Of a stretch of DNA of 35,091 bases, positions 14,008-34,987 are shown piece by piece. The first letter of the stretch is position 1. Each line of letters starts with the position of its first letter. The notes beneath the pieces are model-generated. The model was not told the DNA's origin, did no database searches, and saw only the letters and a list, made by a program, of their open reading frames with translations. This DNA comes from Deltaproteobacteria bacterium (GTDB lineage: Bacteria; Desulfobacterota; Dissulfuribacteria; Dissulfuribacterales; QOAL01): contig JALWYS010000196.1 in NCBI GenBank assembly GCA_027003115.1, forward strand, positions 1-35,091. Reading direction: 5' to 3'. The position numbers and the translations under genes are program-made.

Positions 14008-14751
14008 GTGAAAGGAAACAGGTCCGATAAGCCAAATTATGTGACAGATGAGGAAAGAAGGGAATTTCTGAAGTTGGGCCTCAAGATAACCGGAGTGTTG
14101 GCTGGAGGTTCCATCCTGTCCCTGGTTCCCCTTCCTGAAGACGAGGCCAAGGCCCTTGTGGAGCTGGAAGGTTATGAAAAAACCCAGTACAAGCCCCACT
14201 ATGTCATGGTTATAAGGCAAAATCACTGTGTTGACTGCGAAAAGTGCAAAGAGGCCTGCGTTAAGACTAACCATGTGCCTGACTATGGGTACAGGACAAC
14301 CATTCTGGAAAAATTGGCCGAGGATGAGGAGGGCAAGAAGTTTCCGGTTTTCATGCCTGTTCTTTGCAACCACTGTCTCAATCCTCCTTGTGTGAGGGTT
14401 TGTCCAACCAAGGCTACAACCAAGGACCCGAAGACTGGCATAGTGGTAATGCACTATCACAAGTGCATTGGATGCAAGACCTGTATGGCCGCCTGCCCGT
14501 ACAATGCCAGGTATTTTAACGAGGAAAAACGGGCCATTGATAAATGCAACTTCTGTTGGGATACAAGGCTTTCAAAGGGCGAGAAGCTTACTGCATGTGC
14601 TGCCGCCTGTCCGGCACACGTCAGGGTCTTTGGTGATTTTTCCGATCACGACAGCGAAGTTTGGAAACTGGTCCATCAGCCGGACAAGGCGGTCTGGGTT
14701 CTGAGGCCTGAGACAGGCGCCAAACCGTGCATCTTTTACATGAATGATTAA
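14008..14751 (+). CDS. Tat-exported ferredoxin-type subunit with four [4Fe-4S] clusters (DsrO/NrfC/PsrB-like)
   Basis: Electron-transfer subunit of membrane oxidoreductases of the NrfC/PsrB/DsrO kind. The N-terminus has a twin-arginine signal (ERREFLKLGLKITGVLAGG). Sixteen cysteines fall into four groups: CVDCEKCKEAC, CNHCLNPPCVRVC, CIGCKTCMAAC and CNFC...TACAAAC, enough for four cubane clusters. The C-terminal KPCIFYMND is family-like. Length 247 aa is normal. It starts with GTG at 14008, supported by AAGGAGG nine bases upstream. Such subunits usually pair with an NrfD membrane partner; that partner is not adjacent, but an NrfD-family gene lies 13 kb away at 27743. The triheme cytochrome gene follows 17 bp downstream, so a periplasmic electron path from cytochrome to ferredoxin or the reverse is likely. 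The exact complex is unknown. Confidence 0.93.
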   Translation: MKGNRSDKPNYVTDEERREFLKLGLKITGVLAGGSILSLVPLPEDEAKALVELEGYEKTQYKPHYVMVIRQNHCVDCEKCKEACVKTNHVPDYGYRTTILEKLAEDEEGKKFPVFMPVLCNHCLNPPCVRVCPTKATTKDPKTGIVVMHYHKCIGCKTCMAACPYNARYFNEEKRAIDKCNFCWDTRLSKGEKLTACAAACPAHVRVFGDFSDHDSEVWKLVHQPDKAVWVLRPETGAKPCIFYMND

Positions 14752-14768: not shown

Positions 14769-15176
14769 ATGATGGAAAAAGGTATTAAGATATTTCTTTG
14801 CATTGTGTTCTTTCTTTGCTTTGTAGCAGCAGGGGCAGCAATCGGAGAGGATGAGGAAGCTGAATATCCGACCGAGCCCATCATATTTACAAAGCCGGTG
14901 AAGGCCGTGATTTTTGATCACAAGCTCCATGTTGAAGACAATGGTCTTGATTGTGATTCCTGCCATGACGATATTTTTGAGATGGAGGCAGGTACAGCTG
15001 AACAAAACAAGGATTTTACAATGAAGGCCCTTTATAAGGGTAAATATTGCGGGCAATGCCATGATGGAGACACGGCCTTTGCATCAAACACCAGATGCAC
15101 GCTTTGCCATATCGGGGTTAAGGGTTACAATAGGATGACCGGGGTAAAGCCAAAGGGCCACGAAGGCCACGAATAA
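14769..15176 (+). CDS. Triheme c7-type cytochrome, periplasmic
   Basis: A 135-aa secreted c-type cytochrome. Residues 1 to about 25 are a signal peptide (IFLCIVFFLCFVAAGAAIG). Three heme-binding motifs are present, CDSCH (62-66), CGQCH (94-98) and CTLCH (110-114), with extra histidines (FDHKLHVEDN) that can serve as distal ligands. The spacing and the FxHxxH stretch before the first motif fit the triheme c7/c3-like family. The ATG at 14769 follows GGGGG by five bases; the next codon is also ATG. It lies 17 bp after the ferredoxin gene and is probably co-transcribed, acting as electron carrier to or from it. The C-terminus ends in a His/Lys-rich tail (KGHEGHE). Confidence 0.92.
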   Translation: MMEKGIKIFLCIVFFLCFVAAGAAIGEDEEAEYPTEPIIFTKPVKAVIFDHKLHVEDNGLDCDSCHDDIFEMEAGTAEQNKDFTMKALYKGKYCGQCHDGDTAFASNTRCTLCHIGVKGYNRMTGVKPKGHEGHE

Positions 15177-15251: not shown

Positions 15252-15410
15252 ATGGACAATCTTCTTTCTCTTCTTTTAATTCTGGTAATATGGATCTGCA
15301 TTAACAGATGGCTGCTCCCAAAGCTGGGGCTTCCTTCCTGAGGCGCACCTGTTGATGCCGGTCGGCAGACGAAACTCGAAAAAAGACCAAAAAGACCCAA
15401 CCCCACCTGA
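15252..15410 (+). CDS. Probable small membrane selenoprotein, UGA at codon 30 read as selenocysteine
   Basis: Read conventionally this is only 29 codons: an N-terminal membrane helix (LLSLLLILVIWICIN) then RWLLPKLGLPS and TGA at 15339. Reading the TGA as selenocysteine (U) gives LGLPS-U-GAPVDAG followed by a basic, proline-rich tail (KLEKRPKRPNPT) and a TGA stop at 15408; 52 aa in all. Just after the in-frame TGA is a hairpin, UGCC-GGUC-GGCA, whose GGUC loop begins 18 bases from the UGA, the same loop and spacing as the SECIS of E. coli fdhF. The ATG has AAAAGGA about 12 bases upstream, a little far. It lies 75 bp after the cytochrome gene in the same direction. Role unknown; a membrane-anchored redox-active selenol near the ferredoxin/cytochrome pair is inference. 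Other genes here end in TGA, so UGA is not generally reassigned. Confidence 0.68.
15339..15375 (+). promoter_or_regulatory. Bacterial SECIS-like element (UGA plus downstream hairpin)
   Basis: From the UGA at 15339 there are 18 bases to the apical loop GGTC (15360-15363), closed by TGCC (15356-15359) and GGCA (15364-15367). A lower GTT/AAC helix (15351-15353 with 15373-15375) can form across an internal loop with possible sheared G-A pairs. Bacterial SECIS elements carry a guanine at the start of the apical loop and place it about 16-37 bases from the UGA; this one matches both. Confidence 0.65.
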
Positions 15411-15424
15411 GACGGCCCAAGCTG

Positions 15425-15445
15425 TTCGATTGGGGACCAATCGAA
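15425..15445. terminator. Hairpin between convergent genes, possible terminator
   Basis: A perfect 9-bp stem, TTCGATTGG against CCAATCGAA, with a GGA loop. On the plus strand it is followed by A-rich sequence and then, 14 bases on, TTTTT. This is not a textbook terminator in either direction, but it is the only strong hairpin between the convergent selenoprotein and prenyltransferase-fold genes. Confidence 0.45.
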
Positions 15446-15475
15446 AAAATAGCCTTACTTTTTCCTTTTGAAAAA

Positions 15476-16291
15476 CTAAGGTGTTACCCTTAGTAAATCA
15501 TTATTGTTGGAGTTGAGTATCAATGAGGCAACGCCATGCCAAGTAGCATCCAGGAAGGGTGCTGCGTCTGCCTTTCTTGAAAAACCTCCGTTTTTTGTCT
15601 GGCAGCCAATTACGAACCTTGTGGCATTTTCCCTGTCCAAAGTACTTTCATTCAAAAATCCCAATGCATGTAAGGCAAAATGGGTGTTTTCAAGGTAAGA
15701 TGTTGAACCAGGAAGAAATCCAAAGCCTCCATCATAATTTTGGCACTTTTTGATCCAGTTTGCAGCCTTTCTTTGATCAATCAGGCCCCCTCCGGTCATC
15801 TTATCAATAAAGATTGCCATCCATCTTTTAAAGAGTATTCCCTTAAACGTCACCGTTTGTGCCAGCTTCTGGCTTGAAAAACCAAAGGGTGTTGTCAAGT
15901 CAAGGAGCCAGCAAATGCTCATGGCGTAATAGATATCCTCAAGGCCCTGGGGTGTGGAGTTTAGAAAATCCTTTTTGGCAATTCTTTCCGCCTTGGCACA
16001 CAGGCCGCACTTTTTCATGCACCATATAAGTTGATAGGCGCCTTTCATGCCGAGATTGGGCTTTTGGGAAACAAAATGCAACAGAAATTGAGAGTGTAGC
16101 TCCCTTTCCAGCTCAACTCCTTTTGGAAGCCCACAATAACGCTCAACACCATCCAGGATTCTTAGCCCATGATAAGTATCTTCCAATGTGGCAGGTAGTT
16201 TTGGAGTCGCCCCAAAGCCCCCATCGTCTTTTTTTCTGTCCAGGGTAAAAAAGACGGCCTTTCTTAGATTTTCAGCAAATTTCTTTTCCAT
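15476..16291 (-). CDS. Prenyltransferase/squalene-cyclase-fold protein resembling a protein prenyltransferase beta subunit
   Basis: 271 aa with repeated alpha-barrel motifs: KKDDGGFGATPKLPATLEDTYHGLRIL (residues about 20-46), KKCQNYDGGFGFLPGSTSYLENTHFALHALGFL and GCQTKNGGFSRKADAAPFLDATWHGVASL. The C-Q-x-x-x-GGF...Y/W-H-x...L pattern is that of farnesyl/geranylgeranyl transferase beta subunits and squalene cyclases. The segment matching the zinc Asp-x-Cys of the protein prenyltransferases reads FIDKMTGGG and has no Cys, so zinc catalysis is doubtful. It begins 1 bp after the GNAT stop, in one operon with the GNAT and malQ. No signal peptide is seen. It may bind an isoprenoid or act as a scaffold; function not assigned. 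Confidence 0.78.
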   Translation of the reverse strand: MEKKFAENLRKAVFFTLDRKKDDGGFGATPKLPATLEDTYHGLRILDGVERYCGLPKGVELERELHSQFLLHFVSQKPNLGMKGAYQLIWCMKKCGLCAKAERIAKKDFLNSTPQGLEDIYYAMSICWLLDLTTPFGFSSQKLAQTVTFKGILFKRWMAIFIDKMTGGGLIDQRKAANWIKKCQNYDGGFGFLPGSTSYLENTHFALHALGFLNESTLDRENATRFVIGCQTKNGGFSRKADAAPFLDATWHGVASLILNSNNNDLLRVTP

Positions 16292-16292
16292 T

Positions 16293-16796
16293 TTATTTAA
16301 ATTCTTTTATCAAGATGAGAGTTGAGCAGGTTTCGCTTACCAGGCAGAATCCGTTCTTTTTCCAGAACAGAAGGCCTTCTTTGTTATCCCTTTTTACTTC
16401 CACAAACATCCGCCTGCAAACGCCCGACTTTTTGAAATGCTGGGCAAGAGCCTTTACGACTGATGATCCGACGCCCCTGTTTCTCGAGGCCTTATTGAAA
16501 ATTGCAAGGGTGAGAAAAAGATGAACACCTGGCTGCCACTGGTAAGCCCCTACGATGCCAATGGGGATTTGCCCCTGTTTTATGATGTAGGCCCATGAAA
16601 AGAGACGGATTGAAAGGAGCAGTATCTGCAGGATTGAGCCACAGCGGGCAAATCCAAGTTTGTTAAGGACAGAAGTATCAGAATTTTTTAAAAGGCTGTA
16701 AAAGACACGCCATCTGGTGATAGTCAGAAGATCCAGTTTAATATCATTTCCGGCATCAAGCCTTTTGGGTATCTTCCATGCCTTGAATGCGGGCAT
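16293..16796 (-). CDS. GNAT-family N-acetyltransferase
   Basis: An acetyl-CoA-dependent acyltransferase of unknown substrate. The second half holds the GNAT core: PIGIVGAYQWQPGVHLFLTL, then the acetyl-CoA loop NRGVGSSVVKALAQHFKKSG, then RRMFVEVKRDNKEGLLFWKKNGF, the usual closing strands. The frame is open 11 codons before, but GGAGG stands nine bases upstream of the ATG at 16796, which I choose (167 aa). This start lies inside malQ, overlapping it by 41 bp in another frame, so the genes are translationally coupled. The N-terminal third (RWRVFYSLLKNSDTSVLNKL) has no recognised domain. Confidence 0.85.
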   Translation of the reverse strand: MPAFKAWKIPKRLDAGNDIKLDLLTITRWRVFYSLLKNSDTSVLNKLGFARCGSILQILLLSIRLFSWAYIIKQGQIPIGIVGAYQWQPGVHLFLTLAIFNKASRNRGVGSSVVKALAQHFKKSGVCRRMFVEVKRDNKEGLLFWKKNGFCLVSETCSTLILIKEFK

Positions 16797-18327
16797 AAAA
16801 TTTTGCCTCCGAATAAAGTGCAGCCGCAAGCTCTCCGGTAATAAATCTTTCAGCCAGCCGCCATCTCCAGTTGCCCTTGCTTGTGGACGGTGTATTCATG
16901 CGACAGTCGCTTCCAAAGCCCAGGGCGTCCTGCATGGGAAGTATGGCTGTCCTTGCTACTGAAGAGTATGCAAGGCGCAAGAAGTCCCAGTGGACACGGC
17001 TTCCGTCACTGTTTGCATATCTTCTTAGCCTTTCCTTGGAAAATTCAGGCACACTCGGGTCAAGGTACCAGCCCACAACTGTGTTGTTGTCATGGGTTCC
17101 AGAATAGACGTAAAAGTTGGTGTGTTCAAAGTTGTGGGGTAGGTAGAGGTTTTTTTCATCAGAGCCAAATGCAAAGATTAGGACCTTCATGCCCGCAAGG
17201 CCGAGCTCCTCCCTGAGTCTTATAACGGGCCTTGTTATTGTCCCAAGGTCTTCGGCCACGATTTCAAGGTCTTTGACTGCATTTCTCATGCGTTCAAAAA
17301 AGTATCTTCCAGGGCCTCTAACCCACTTGCCTTTGATTGCCGTAGGTTCTGAGGCAGGCACCTGCCAGTAGGCCTGAAAGCCCCTGAAGTGGTCTATTCT
17401 AAGGATGTGTAGAAGGGAGGCCATTCGTGAAAGTCTCATGTGCCACCACTGATAAAGGCGCTCGTTTGGCTTACCATTCACCTTCCACTTGTAAATGGGG
17501 TTGCCCCACCTCTGCCCTGTTTTGCTGAAGTAATCGGGAGGCACCCCTGCCACCACCGTGGGTTCAAGGGTTTTAGGGTCTAGCTCGAAACATTCCTGGT
17601 TCGCCCACACGTCAGCACTATCAGGGGCCACATAGATGGGGATGTCCCCAAAGAGCTTGACCCCTGCCTTTTCTGCCCGTTTTTTGAGCTCCGACCATTG
17701 AAGGGAAAAGAGCCACTGCACGAACTTGTGAAATTTGATCCTGTATAAAAGGCCCTTTCTGGTCTCCTCCAAGGCCTCCTTCTTTCTGCTAGCAATAGGG
17801 CCAGGCCACTTCTTCCACGGCCTTTGATTGAATTTTTCCTTAAGCGCCATGAAAAGGGCATAGTCATCAAGCCACGAACTGTTTTCCTGGCAGAAGGCTT
17901 CAAAGTCCGGATATGGGCCTGCTGTGGCAAAGTTTCCATATGCCCTTTCAAGAAGATCCCAAAGATAGGGTTCCACCCTTTGGAAATCTATCAGATACTC
18001 TGAAAATGCAGGCCTTTTTTTTAGGTCAGACTGGTCAATAAGCCCCATCTCTTTGAGTTTAAGAGGGCATATAAAGAGTGGATTTCCGGCAAAGGCAGAG
18101 CTTGCCATATAGGGAGAGTGGTCAAGCCCAGACTTTGTAGGGCCAAGAGGCAAAAACTGCCACACGCTTTGGCCTGCGGCTTGTAAAAAATCAATAAATT
18201 TGTGGGCCTCTTTACCTAGTTGGCCGATTCCAAAAGGCCCTGGCAGGGAAGATATATGGAGAAGTATGCCGCAGCGCCTTTTACGCTCAAATGGGAAGAG
18301 CACATCCTGTTTGTCCTTACAATACAT
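16756..18327 (-). CDS. malQ: 4-alpha-glucanotransferase (amylomaltase)
   Basis: GH77 enzyme that moves maltodextrin units between alpha-1,4-glucans in the cytoplasm, used in glycogen and maltodextrin metabolism. Visible family segments: GILLHISSLPGPFGIGQLGK, WQFLPLGPT, DHSPYMASSAFAGNP, KLFGDIPIYVAPDSADVWAN, the nucleophile Asp in LRIDHFRGF, the acid/base Glu in VAEDLGTITRPV and the transition-state Asp in YSGTHDNNTVVGW. The frame extends to a GTG at 18402, but that stretch is the dnaK terminator; the ATG at 18327, with AAGGA eight bases upstream, gives 523 aa, near the family norm. The start is only 16 bp past the terminator T-run, so malQ may depend on read-through from the heat-shock operon or on a promoter overlapping the hairpin. 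Confidence 0.95.
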   Translation of the reverse strand: MYCKDKQDVLFPFERKRRCGILLHISSLPGPFGIGQLGKEAHKFIDFLQAAGQSVWQFLPLGPTKSGLDHSPYMASSAFAGNPLFICPLKLKEMGLIDQSDLKKRPAFSEYLIDFQRVEPYLWDLLERAYGNFATAGPYPDFEAFCQENSSWLDDYALFMALKEKFNQRPWKKWPGPIASRKKEALEETRKGLLYRIKFHKFVQWLFSLQWSELKKRAEKAGVKLFGDIPIYVAPDSADVWANQECFELDPKTLEPTVVAGVPPDYFSKTGQRWGNPIYKWKVNGKPNERLYQWWHMRLSRMASLLHILRIDHFRGFQAYWQVPASEPTAIKGKWVRGPGRYFFERMRNAVKDLEIVAEDLGTITRPVIRLREELGLAGMKVLIFAFGSDEKNLYLPHNFEHTNFYVYSGTHDNNTVVGWYLDPSVPEFSKERLRRYANSDGSRVHWDFLRLAYSSVARTAILPMQDALGFGSDCRMNTPSTSKGNWRWRLAERFITGELAAALYSEAKFYARIQGMEDTQKA

Positions 18328-27742: not shown

Positions 27743-28936
27743 ATGAACGAACCAACCGTTAGCTCGCTAACTGCGGGCAAAGTCCTACCAGTTGTCAGTT
27801 CAAGGGCCTACAATGCAAGCATTGCTTTTTTCGCTTTTATGGCAGCCATTGGGATTGCCTTCGGGCTACATGCCATGTATATCGGGCATGAGGTAGCCTA
27901 CAACTGTACAAGGGAAATACCCTGGGGCCTTCTGATTGCCACCTACGTCTTTTTTGTGGTTACCTCCACAGGGCTCTGCATTGTTTCTTCCCTTGGCCAC
28001 GTATTCGGTTTTGACAGTTTTGTTCCAATAGCCAAGAGGGCGGTCTTTCTTTCCATTGCCACCATCGTCAGCGGCTTTATAGTTATCGCATTCGAGATAG
28101 AAAATCCCTGGCGCATGGCTATTTACAACATGATTTCCCCAAATCTCACCTCAAACATCTGGTGGATGGGTACACTCTACGGCATCTATCTCTTTTTCAT
28201 GGCCGTTGAGTTTGCCATGCTCCAGCTGAACAAGCACAAGCAGGCGGCCATGTTTGGTTTGCTCGGGGTTCTGTCCGGTATTGCCGCTCACAGTAACCTG
28301 GGTGCAGTCTTTGGCCTCCTTGGCTCCCGTGAGTTCTGGCATGGACCTTACATGCCCATCTATTTCATTACTTCCGCCGCCATGTCGGGCTGTGCCGCTG
28401 TATTGCTTTTCACTTACATTGCCTACAAGACAAATGGCTGGAAAATGAGCGATAAGCTCAAAAGTTCCCTCAAGGCCGTTGCCTACACTGGTGCTTTTCT
28501 CATGGCAACCCTCATCTTCTTTGACATCTGGAAAGTTCTCTCGGGAATTGCGGGTCACCCTCCAGGAAAGTACGAAGCCACCATGGCACTTATTAAGGGA
28601 CCCTACGCATTTAACTTCTGGGTAGGGGAAGTCTTAATGGGCATGGTTCTTCCTTTTGTAATAATACTTGGTACCAAGGGAAGAAGCGTACCGGCCCTCT
28701 TTGCAGCAGGCGCACTCTGTGTGGTAGGTATCTTCTTCATGCGCTACGATCTCGTTCTCGTAGGTGAAATAGTCAATCCCTTTCACGAATACGGAGTGAT
28801 CGATTTTCCCCTTTATCTAAGCTACGTGCCAAGTTTGCATGAAATAATGATAACCATTGGCGGTTTAAGTTTCTGCGCCATGGCCTTTCTAATGGGCGAG
28901 AAGATGTTTAAGGGGCATCTTGCAGAAGATCACTAA
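27743..28936 (+). CDS. NrfD/PsrC/DsrP-family membrane subunit
   Basis: Integral membrane quinone-interacting subunit of oxidoreductase complexes that pair with four-cluster ferredoxin subunits. 397 aa with about ten hydrophobic helices; the start includes GLHAMYIGHEVAYNCTREIPWGLLI and STGLCIVSSLGHVFG, typical of NrfD proteins, and later helices SNIWWMGTLYGIYLFF, SREFWHGPYMPIYF, NFWVGEVLMGMVLPF. The partner ferredoxin (14008) is 13 kb away, and no catalytic subunit is adjacent. AGGAGG stands 13 bases before the ATG; a 4-codon frame (ATG at 27732, MEKK) ends in TGA overlapping this ATG as ATGA. Transcription is likely controlled by the palindrome at 27656. It could belong to a sulfur- or quinone-linked respiratory complex. 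Confidence 0.93.
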   Translation: MNEPTVSSLTAGKVLPVVSSRAYNASIAFFAFMAAIGIAFGLHAMYIGHEVAYNCTREIPWGLLIATYVFFVVTSTGLCIVSSLGHVFGFDSFVPIAKRAVFLSIATIVSGFIVIAFEIENPWRMAIYNMISPNLTSNIWWMGTLYGIYLFFMAVEFAMLQLNKHKQAAMFGLLGVLSGIAAHSNLGAVFGLLGSREFWHGPYMPIYFITSAAMSGCAAVLLFTYIAYKTNGWKMSDKLKSSLKAVAYTGAFLMATLIFFDIWKVLSGIAGHPPGKYEATMALIKGPYAFNFWVGEVLMGMVLPFVIILGTKGRSVPALFAAGALCVVGIFFMRYDLVLVGEIVNPFHEYGVIDFPLYLSYVPSLHEIMITIGGLSFCAMAFLMGEKMFKGHLAEDH

Positions 28937-28983
28937 TTCATCAGCAATCCCAGAAAGTTAGACATAGGGACACAGACACAAAA

Positions 28984-29018
28984 GGGCCTGCCCCAGCCCA
29001 GTAAATAAGGGCAGGCCC
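28984..29018. terminator. Strong hairpin between the NrfD-like and MerR genes
   Basis: A perfect 10-bp GC-rich stem, GGGCCTGCCC against GGGCAGGCCC, with a 15-base loop, 47 bp after the NrfD-gene stop. No T-run follows on the plus strand; the minus strand has TTTTG. It may slow or end transcription of the NrfD gene, or partly insulate merR, whose ATG is 9 bp away. Confidence 0.55.
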
Positions 29019-29027
29019 CAACCCACC

Positions 29028-29435
29028 ATGCTGAGGTTCATGAGTCAAAAAAAGAGAAGGCATAAAATAGGGGCATTTCCAGACAGGCTGGTACCCGTTT
29101 ATCCAATAGGAGTTGCTGCAAAGCTTTTGGATGTCCATCCTAGAACACTGAGGCTTTACGAGGCCGAAGGGCTCCTTTCACCTCATTACAAAGGGGGACG
29201 TCGTATCTTTTCCCAAAGTGACATCCAGTGGGTTTCGTGTCTGCGTTCCATAATCCATGATGAAGGCATCAGCATACCAGGCATCAAGCGCATTCTTAAA
29301 TATGAGCCCTGCTGGAAGATCCTTGATTGCCCCAAAGAAGTTCACGAGACGTGCGAGGCAAAGGTTGATCGCACAGAACAGTCTTCCAATCCCCTGATTT
29401 GTAGCAGCTGCGGGGAAAAGCTGCCTGAGAAATAG
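29028..29435 (+). CDS. MerR-family transcriptional regulator with cysteine-rich tail
   Basis: 135 aa. The DNA-binding winged helix is clear: VYPIGVAAKLLDVHPRTLRLYEAEGLLSPHYKGGRRIFSQSDIQWV, most like HspR-type MerR proteins. The C-terminal part after about residue 90 has cysteines in PCWKILDCPKEVHETCEAK and ICSSCGEKL, which could bind zinc or another metal or sense redox state. Two starts are possible (ATG 29028 and 29040); the Shine-Dalgarno is weak for both. It lies 91 bp after the NrfD-like gene and ends convergent with the sigma-54 regulator. It is a candidate regulator of the NrfD-like gene, from position only. Confidence 0.88.
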   Translation: MLRFMSQKKRRHKIGAFPDRLVPVYPIGVAAKLLDVHPRTLRLYEAEGLLSPHYKGGRRIFSQSDIQWVSCLRSIIHDEGISIPGIKRILKYEPCWKILDCPKEVHETCEAKVDRTEQSSNPLICSSCGEKLPEK

Positions 29436-33112: not shown

Positions 33113-33733
33113 TCAATGCTTCATCTCTTTGCCAGGTGGTTCCGGCTGAGGATTGATCATTCCATGTTTGCCAGGCGGCTCGGGTTGGGGATTGATCATC
33201 CTGGATGAGCCTGGAACAGGGCCGCTGCTTCCTTTTTGAAGGCCAGTGTTTCTCTTTCCTACAGCGTTAAGCCGGGCTTTTCCGCATGTGGGTCTTAGCA
33301 TTTTTGTCCACGTCTTTTTGTCCCCGTTAAATAGGGTAAGGCTCACCTTCATATTGGTCTCTTTGGCAATGGGCTTTGCCTCGATGTAGGTTGCAGTTCC
33401 GTTTTTGGCGCACAGCCGCCTCCCTGGATCTATAATGGAAAGGCTTACTGGCGTGTCCTGGCCGACCTGGAGGGTGCTGTTGCGGTGCTGCTCTTTTGTC
33501 AGAACGCTTCCCTTGTTCTGCAGTTCAAGCCTTAATTGGCAGTTTCCGGTCAAATCAAATCTTACAACCTCTATGTCAAACGTCTTCTTCTCCACCGCCA
33601 CTGCGTGATGTAGATTGATTACTCCGCGGTTGGTAGCGCCTGCCGGCGCATTTGCCTGGGACGTAGCGGCACACATCAGAAAAAACATGACACCAATGAC
33701 CGCTGTTTCAAGTGTTCTTTGTCTGCTCTTCAT
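33113..33733 (-). CDS. Secreted protein with tandem MINPQPEPPGK C-terminal motif
   Basis: 206 aa. Signal peptide at residues 1-27 (VIGVMFFLMCAATSQANA). The body has beta-rich text (FDIEVVRFDLTGNCQLRLEL, TPVSLSIIDPGRRLCA, KVSLTLFNGDKKTW) and three cysteines, one pair possibly forming a disulfide. The C-terminus holds two copies of MINPQPEPPGK, separated by two residues, then EMKH. AGGAGG precedes the ATG. Two other small secreted genes lie upstream on the same strand. Export and extracytoplasmic function are supported; the role is unknown. Confidence 0.82.
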   Translation of the reverse strand: MKSRQRTLETAVIGVMFFLMCAATSQANAPAGATNRGVINLHHAVAVEKKTFDIEVVRFDLTGNCQLRLELQNKGSVLTKEQHRNSTLQVGQDTPVSLSIIDPGRRLCAKNGTATYIEAKPIAKETNMKVSLTLFNGDKKTWTKMLRPTCGKARLNAVGKRNTGLQKGSSGPVPGSSRMINPQPEPPGKHGMINPQPEPPGKEMKH

Positions 33734-33826
33734 TTATCCTCCTCTCGTTTGTTTTTTTCCGCCATGGCGGAAATGTAGTATGGAAATAGCCCTTTGGGCG
33801 AGTGGTTTCGCCCGGGATGATCCTGA

Positions 33827-34369
33827 CTACTTAGGACTGACCTCCGAGGCGGCCGGTTTTGTGCCGACCTTTTTCTTTAGTATTTCAGGGTGAGCAGTAA
33901 AGTCAGGAAAATAGGCAACCGCCGTGTTGTTTCTCTTGTTTTTCTCCCTTCCGCTGTAAACCGCCGTGATACGAAAGCCGACCTTGTCTTTCTTGTCAGC
34001 ACACCAGGCGTTTTCATAAATAGGAGAGGGAGACTGCCTGTAGCTTTTGCCAGGAGCCAGTGTGTGATGGCTGCTGCCTCCCATATACTCCCAGGGCCTG
34101 CCCTGTGTTTTCCAGTATTCCTTGATCTCAAAATTCCTGGCCGTTGCCTGGCCTTTGTTGGTTATGGTGTATTCCGGCCTTACGCTAAAGCAGTGGACCC
34201 CTTTGCCGCTTACGAATTTCTTGGTCACAAGCTTCAGCTTCACGGCAAGATCTGGCAGCAGAAGAGTTGCTGTGGGACGCGGCTGCCCGGCCAGTAAGGG
34301 CTGCACGCAAAGGAAACAGGCGCACATTATGAAAAGCGCTAGTAACTTGGATTTTCTTGATTTTTTCAT
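33827..34369 (-). CDS. Secreted CARDB-like (Ig-fold) protein, copy B
   Basis: 180 aa after choosing the ATG at 34369, with AAAGGAG about six bases upstream, over the longer frame. Signal peptide: KLLALFIMCACFLCVQPLLA. The mature protein begins with LLLPDLAVKLKLVTKK and continues CFSVRPEYTITNKGQATARN, then NKRNNTAVAYFP, the pattern of CARDB/Ig-like extracellular domains (polar repeat, N-K-G turn, R-N-N). It has two cysteines in the mature part (HCFS and AWCAD). It is paralogous to the gene at 34430: both have LPDL, a Cys, a TNKG/LNKG turn and an RNN/HNN motif. Likely a structural or binding protein outside the cell. Confidence 0.83.
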   Translation of the reverse strand: MKKSRKSKLLALFIMCACFLCVQPLLAGQPRPTATLLLPDLAVKLKLVTKKFVSGKGVHCFSVRPEYTITNKGQATARNFEIKEYWKTQGRPWEYMGGSSHHTLAPGKSYRQSPSPIYENAWCADKKDKVGFRITAVYSGREKNKRNNTAVAYFPDFTAHPEILKKKVGTKPAASEVSPK

Positions 34370-34429
34370 GACTTCTCCTTTATATCTTGTTTTTGCCATT
34401 TGGATTTCGAATATGTCTTTGCCAATTTA

Positions 34430-34987
34430 TTAGTGCACGATAGGGCCGTGATACCAATGGATGTCGATCCGTTTTTGGTCTAAGTTGTTGTGTTCATTCG
34501 ATTCTTTCAGGCTGTACCGGCTGTCAGCAAGCACCTGGATTATAACCACCTTGTTTTCCTTTTGGAACCTGTTCACGCAGCAGTGGATCTTCCACTGCTG
34601 ATCCGGCCCCCACTGCTTTGTTGAAACGGGATTGAGCGTTACCGGAGGTGATTCCCACGTAATCTCTTCTCCTCCGAATCCAAAAACTTTACCTCTCAGT
34701 TTTACACGGAATTTGTTCGCAGGGACCGCGCCTTTATTTAGCACTGAAAAAGACGGCTGGATTGTGTAGCAGGTGTTCCCCTGGCCATCAGTGCCTGTCT
34801 TAGAGATCGTTACATCGAGATGAGGCGTCAAGTCAGGCAGAAACGGTATCGTAATATGCTTCTGTACATGCTTTTTGGGTTCCTTGGCAGCTTGGTGACT
34901 CCCTGGTAGCGGCTGGCCTGCCCATGCGGACGCAGTCAACAGGGAAAAAATAATGGCTGTAAATAAAAGATTCATTCTAGGCTTCAT
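34430..34987 (-). CDS. Secreted CARDB-like (Ig-fold) protein, copy A
   Basis: 185 aa. Signal peptide LLFTAIIFSLLTASAWA, cleaved before GQPLPG. The mature domain has FLPDLTPHLDVTISKTG, CYTIQPSFSVLNKGAVPANK and NEHNNLDQKRIDIHW, matching CARDB-like Ig folds and the downstream paralogue. Cysteines in NTCYTI and the pair HCCVN may form disulfides. AAAGGAGG precedes the ATG. It is first of three small secreted-protein genes on the minus strand and probably leads the operon; its promoter region is in the last 104 bp of the window, where I see only an AT-rich TTATAA-like element and no clear operator. Confidence 0.84.
   Translation of the reverse strand: MKPRMNLLFTAIIFSLLTASAWAGQPLPGSHQAAKEPKKHVQKHITIPFLPDLTPHLDVTISKTGTDGQGNTCYTIQPSFSVLNKGAVPANKFRVKLRGKVFGFGGEEITWESPPVTLNPVSTKQWGPDQQWKIHCCVNRFQKENKVVIIQVLADSRYSLKESNEHNNLDQKRIDIHWYHGPIVH

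Follow-up and report, generated by a model that had tools for sequence, protein, structure and literature searches.

A probable small membrane selenoprotein with two in-frame UGA codons, and the apparently undescribed family to which it belongs

The gene and its surroundings

The window (the whole stretch of 35,091 nucleotides that was analysed) carries on its forward strand a gene for a DsrO-like 4Fe-4S protein (positions 14008-14751), which is conserved among the relatives of the window, and a gene for a c7-type triheme cytochrome (14769-15176), which is conserved in 13 loci. Directly downstream of the cytochrome gene, on the same strand, lies a short gene with homologues in other genomes (15252-15452), consisting of 66 codons plus a TAG and containing two in-frame UGAs that we read as selenocysteine (Sec30 and Sec53). 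The predicted product has 66 residues (MDNLLSLLLILVIWICINRWLLPKLGLPSUGAPVDAGRQTKLEKRPKRPNPTUDGPSCSIGDQSKK). Its first 29 codons (15252-15338) encode a single membrane helix that includes the stretch NRWLLPKLGLPS and follows the family consensus; AlphaFold2 places a helix at residues 3-24 and gives the tail low confidence. The first UGA (15339-15341) is followed by a SECIS-like hairpin (15349-15368), the GGUC loop of which (15360-15363) begins 18 nt past the UGA. The second UGA (15408-15410) is followed by another SECIS-like hairpin, UUCGAUUGG-GGA-CCAAUCGAA (15425-15445), with its loop 23 nt after that codon. Rfam models have no match within the window.

The original prediction had described a frame that opens with the ATG at 15252, runs for 29 codons to the first TGA and for 22 more to the second, with the GGUC hairpin 18 bases after the first TGA, and these coordinates and the hairpin were confirmed. 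It had also ended the gene at 15410; this end is too short, because the frame stays open for 13 conserved codons beyond the second TGA, up to the TAG at 15450-15452. TGA terminates 8 of the 34 long open reading frames of the window itself.

Several other parts of the window were noted. A gene for an NrfD/HmcC-like membrane protein, followed by one for a MerR/HspR-like regulator (27743-29435, forward strand), lies 12 kb from the selenoprotein gene; in four other loci (L018, L028, L030 and L046) an NrfD and MerR/HspR-like pair is immediately upstream of that gene. On the reverse strand, a gene for a prenyltransferase/squalene-cyclase-repeat-like protein with a second gene behind it (15476-16829) is convergent with the selenoprotein gene, as in about six relatives. 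Also on the reverse strand, 33113-34987 encodes three secreted-looking proteins in a row, none of them with an NCBIfam match and the first with PQPEPPGK repeats.

Conservation of the UGA and of the codons behind it

When each GTDB species was represented by one genome, a scan returned 11 close relatives, all from metagenome-assembled genomes of Deltaproteobacteria/Thermodesulfobacteriota, and all 11 have TGA at codon 30. A profile built from 12 members matched 142 of the 395 sampled genomes of the phylum, and a second profile, from 77 diverse members, matched 174 (about 44%), in 115 of 245 genera. The codon at the Sec position is TGA wherever this position is covered, in about 150 genomes; some of the matches listed stop short of the position or were not read. 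Reading out 140 sequences, 134 of them distinct, gave in each a TGA as the first stop in frame, about 29 codons into the gene, followed by 13-36 more codons and then by final stops of mixed identity (59 TGA, 44 TAA and 37 TAG). The read-out procedure sought the first in-frame TGA; the independent count of stops inside the matches by the search tool agrees with it. A drifting ordinary stop would not stay TGA throughout, so this conservation speaks for selenocysteine. The weakest matches, inspected one by one, again have TGA at this position or very close to it, except for an unrelated longer open reading frame (L210), L217, which may be a distant paralogue, and a few short matches due to chance.

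The possible paralogue (G017:C11:91505 onward) has an in-frame TGA of its own (MEDVLIIILVIAFFVALFKWVVPRLKPPTSFGCPTUATKKPHSAGRRNKK). Two adjacent family-like frames at G215:C109:8701-8993 (L208/L218) both contain a TGA; the first, with a TAG three codons further on, may be broken. One genome, G153, holds two divergent family copies (L062 and L093), both with TGA.

Members of the family are 45-70 residues long and share the consensus M-(membrane helix)-N-R/K-W-I-L-P-K/R-L-G-V-x-T-U-M-S-x-S-C-x-x-x-D-R-(basic tail). Relative to Sec, proline at -7 and glycine at -4 each occur in 133 of 134 sequences and threonine at -1 in 107 of 134, and four residues separate Sec from the next cysteine (UxxxxC) in 101 of 140. 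In 119 of 134 members the C-side of the helix carries more positive charge than the N-side; by the positive-inside rule, the helix would be oriented N-out, with the Sec at the cytoplasmic face, a topology that remains an inference. No cysteine form was found in the phylum sample, although the profile carried cysteine at the Sec column, and no cysteine homologues were found on plasmids and viral contigs. The homologues with cysteine at position 30 that had been proposed at the outset are thus missing from the phylum sample.

The codons past the first UGA are under purifying selection. Among close relatives, compared within 14 groups, pN/pS amounts to 0.14 upstream of this UGA and 0.36 downstream of it, and the downstream changes number 731 at third positions versus 374 and 331 at the others. 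In g28, a group of very close relatives, the ratio after the UGA is above 1 but is based on few changes.

Hairpins, selenocysteine machinery and the second UGA

The search for hairpins required a G in the first two loop positions and a distance of 13-40 nt from the UGA, and each gene was compared with 200 synonymous recodings of itself at local codon usage. Such a SECIS-like hairpin is present in 132 of the 134 distinct genes, with a mean energy of -7.5 kcal/mol versus -1.5 in the recodings. Ninety-three of the 134 genes reach p<=0.05 (6.7 expected) and 42 reach p<=0.01 (1.3 expected); in the other 41 the gene's own hairpin is not significant (p above 0.05). A distance of 23 nt from the UGA to the start of the loop is the commonest, as is a loop that begins with GG. 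When registers were tested without picking the best hairpin of each gene, a loop at 23 nt with a length of 3 gave a pairing of 0.63, the top of all registers tested (mean 0.32). The 39 genes that use this register show G-C, A-U, C-G and U-A at stem positions 5-7, that is, changes on both sides of the stem. In the window gene itself (L024), p is 0.005 for the first hairpin against 200 synonymous recodings and 0.002 for the second, which has its GGA loop at the commonest spacing of the family.

The gene of Escherichia coli formate dehydrogenase, fdhF, with a G at the loop start and a hairpin just after the UGA, is the type of a gene with a bacterial SECIS (bSECIS). The family shares with genes of this type the in-frame UGA, a hairpin directly downstream within the coding sequence and the G at the start of the loop. 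Formate dehydrogenase has no sequence relation to the family, the members of which have 45-70 residues, one helix and a loop usually at 23 nt. The published distance of the bSECIS loop is 16-37 nt (PMC13188914), and the loop distances in the family fall within or close to this range.

These observations also bear on an alternative in which the UGA is an ordinary stop that ends a membrane peptide of 29 residues, and the hairpin serves as a terminator or regulatory element. The first 29 codons would by themselves encode a plausible small membrane peptide, but this reading has to accommodate a stop that is TGA and never TAA or TAG in relatives as divergent as these, purifying selection on the codons behind it with their conserved UxxxxC, and a hairpin that matches a bacterial SECIS in its loop G and its spacing and lies ahead of further coding sequence. 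We regard it as scarcely credible.

The genome from which the window comes encodes selB (contig C153), tRNA-Sec (contig C12, 74.4 bits) and selD (L158, G000:C63:12617-13540), the last with an in-frame TGA of its own, making SelD itself a selenoprotein. No selA was found in the draft, which is 90% complete; because 7 of the 9 genomes of the genus do have selA, we read its absence as a gap in the draft. Co-occurrence with selB is a weak test, since selB is found in 372 of the 395 sampled genomes. Four gene-bearing genomes (G009, G012, G039 and G087) have no selB match at E<=1e-40; three of the four have congeners with selB, and G087 is 89% complete.

Given a TGA conserved in a divergent family, purifying selection after it, covarying hairpins, and selB, tRNA-Sec and a Sec-containing selD in the genome, the window gene is almost certainly a selenoprotein gene, even in the absence of expression, 75Se or proteomic data. 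The original prediction would have failed if no cysteine or Sec homologue existed, if the sequence after the UGA were not conserved or if selB and selC were missing. Sec homologues do exist, the downstream sequence is conserved and both genes are in the genome; of selA, selB, selC and selD, which it had suggested looking for, only selA was not recovered. Its proposal of a selenoprotein therefore holds as regards the decoding of UGA as Sec, on the strength of TGA conservation, selection, hairpins and machinery; the product of 52 residues with a single Sec probably does not.

This revision depends on the second UGA, a feature of the window's genus alone that all five of its members found in the 12-member profile search possess. 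The sequence around it, PTUDGPSCSIGDQSKK, is closer to the family motif TUxxxSCxIGxxxKK than is the first copy, PSUGAPVDAGRQ, which lacks the cysteine, and sister genera (L012, L019 and L026) have a single Sec motif, PSUGTQSC. The simplest interpretation would be a tandem duplication of the motif together with its SECIS in the window's genus, as inferred from sequence comparison. If instead only the first UGA encoded Sec, the UGA at 15408 would be a true stop and the product would have 52 residues, and most relatives outside the genus do have one Sec. That the second UGA recurs in five of five members of the genus, that the sequence behind it matches the family motif and has a pN/pS of 0.26, and that it has its own significant hairpin at the commonest spacing, with a C-G to A-U change in the stem in L015 and L017 (with a weaker hairpin there, p about 0.15), make the single-Sec product improbable. 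A product of 66 residues with Sec30 and Sec53 is very likely, again without expression, 75Se or proteomic data, and we hold the selenoprotein identity and the two Sec residues together, leaving function aside, with high confidence.

Possible function and place among known selenoproteins

The genes around members of the family differ between clades. In 30 of about 134 loci, from ten GTDB families, a gene for an FmdB-type zinc-ribbon protein is found no more than 1.5 kb away and in the same orientation; thioredoxin is a neighbour in 9 loci, ArsR in 9, AhpD/CMD-like proteins in 7 and CcdA in 7 (in most of them encoded on the other strand), and a TlpA/AhpC-like cluster is near the gene in 12. Chance rates were not computed for any of these, and the names FmdB, thioredoxin, ArsR, CcdA and AhpD were assigned by reading sequences, except for clusters matched by Pfam. 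Three loci (L064, L074 and L088) have the order arsR (4-bp overlap), selenoprotein gene, fmdB and trxA, followed in L064 and L074 by ccdA. As the neighbours vary between clades, no single partner is established. We infer that the thioredoxin, CcdA, ArsR, FmdB and TlpA/AhpD-like neighbours point to membrane-tethered selenol/thiol redox chemistry.

Within the window's order, the gene follows either the DsrO-like ferredoxin and c7 cytochrome genes (12-13 loci) or the NrfD and MerR/HspR-like regulator genes, an arrangement that would suit an accessory subunit of a membrane electron-transfer complex (ferredoxin, NrfD or multiheme cytochrome) in which Sec is structural or transfers electrons. Such synteny is limited to the window's order and is replaced by fmdB, trx or ccdA in other clades, and we consider this role doubtful. 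Somewhat less doubtful, if still unlikely, is a selenoprotein that binds metals or metalloids, as a sensor, chaperone or sink for arsenic, mercury or selenium, with UxxxxC chelating soft metals at the membrane. Selenols are strong binders of soft metals, and an ArsR-family regulator is encoded in 9 loci, overlapping the gene by 4 bp in three. However, most loci have no ArsR, some ArsR-fold repressors act as redox sensors, and the thioredoxin, CcdA and TlpA/AhpD-like neighbours fit redox chemistry better.

The most likely function, which we put forward tentatively and at slightly less than even confidence, is a membrane-tethered selenol/thiol redox relay or reductase. In our reading of the family as a whole, SelB and tRNA-Sec decode the UGA, aided by the hairpin, the loop of which lies mostly 15-24 nt downstream. 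In such a relay, the product would insert N-out through its one helix, leaving Sec just inside the cytoplasmic face and ahead of the basic tail. In most members Sec could pair with the cysteine of UxxxxC; a substrate would oxidize the pair to a selenenylsulfide, which thioredoxin or CcdA-type partners may then reduce again. Topology, redox cycling and partners are all inferred.

Eukaryotic SelK and SelS are small single-pass membrane selenoproteins with Sec in a cytosolic tail, and the family resembles them in this architecture, with no claim of sequence similarity. They differ in being eukaryotic, in having the SECIS in the 3' UTR and in having Sec near the C terminus. The selenoprotein families with UxxC or CxxU motifs (thioredoxin, Prx-like and DsrE-like; PMC13188914) also have Sec near cysteine in a redox setting, and thioredoxin or CcdA genes adjoin our family in some clades. 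Unlike the thioredoxin-fold selenoproteins, the family has UxxxxC, one helix and a low-confidence tail, no thioredoxin fold and no model match. FmdB zinc-ribbon proteins, for which Sec forms are themselves listed (PMC13188914), are encoded by a partner gene in 30 loci and are no homologues of the family.

Scans of 12 and 77 members against NCBIfam and Pfam gave no match beyond chance, and a profile search of the PDB gave nothing credible; weak NCBIfam/Pfam matches (ATP synthase b and Arabinose_trans) were rejected as chance matches of membrane helices. None of the 119 prokaryotic selenoprotein families and subfamilies catalogued in a 2026 review corresponds by name, size and motif (Table 1, PMC13188914). 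No description of the family was found in the literature, with Haft and Tolstoy 2025 (PMC12013261) covered only through that table and NCBIfam. These are apparently undescribed small single-pass membrane selenoproteins, apparently Sec-only within the sampled genomes of the phylum, and so probably overlooked. The deep-Sep paper used homology filtering and stated that almost all selenoproteins have cysteine homologues (PMC12013277); a Sec-only family would escape methods that rest on such homologues, and ordinary gene callers would cut off or miss Sec-only genes of 45-70 residues.

The fuller picture, of a phylum-wide family without any cysteine version that acts as a redox relay at the membrane surface between thioredoxin or CcdA and a membrane target, and of which the Sec motif and SECIS were duplicated in one genus, is one that we hold only provisionally, just short of an even chance. 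A membrane redox protein common enough to occur in about 44% of the sampled genomes of the phylum, and absent from every model and catalogue examined, appears to have been overlooked. If true, a family without a cysteine version goes against the working rule that cysteine homologues exist for nearly all selenoproteins. The family offers a testable partner for thioredoxin, CcdA and FmdB operons, and suggests that further small Sec-only proteins are still hidden.
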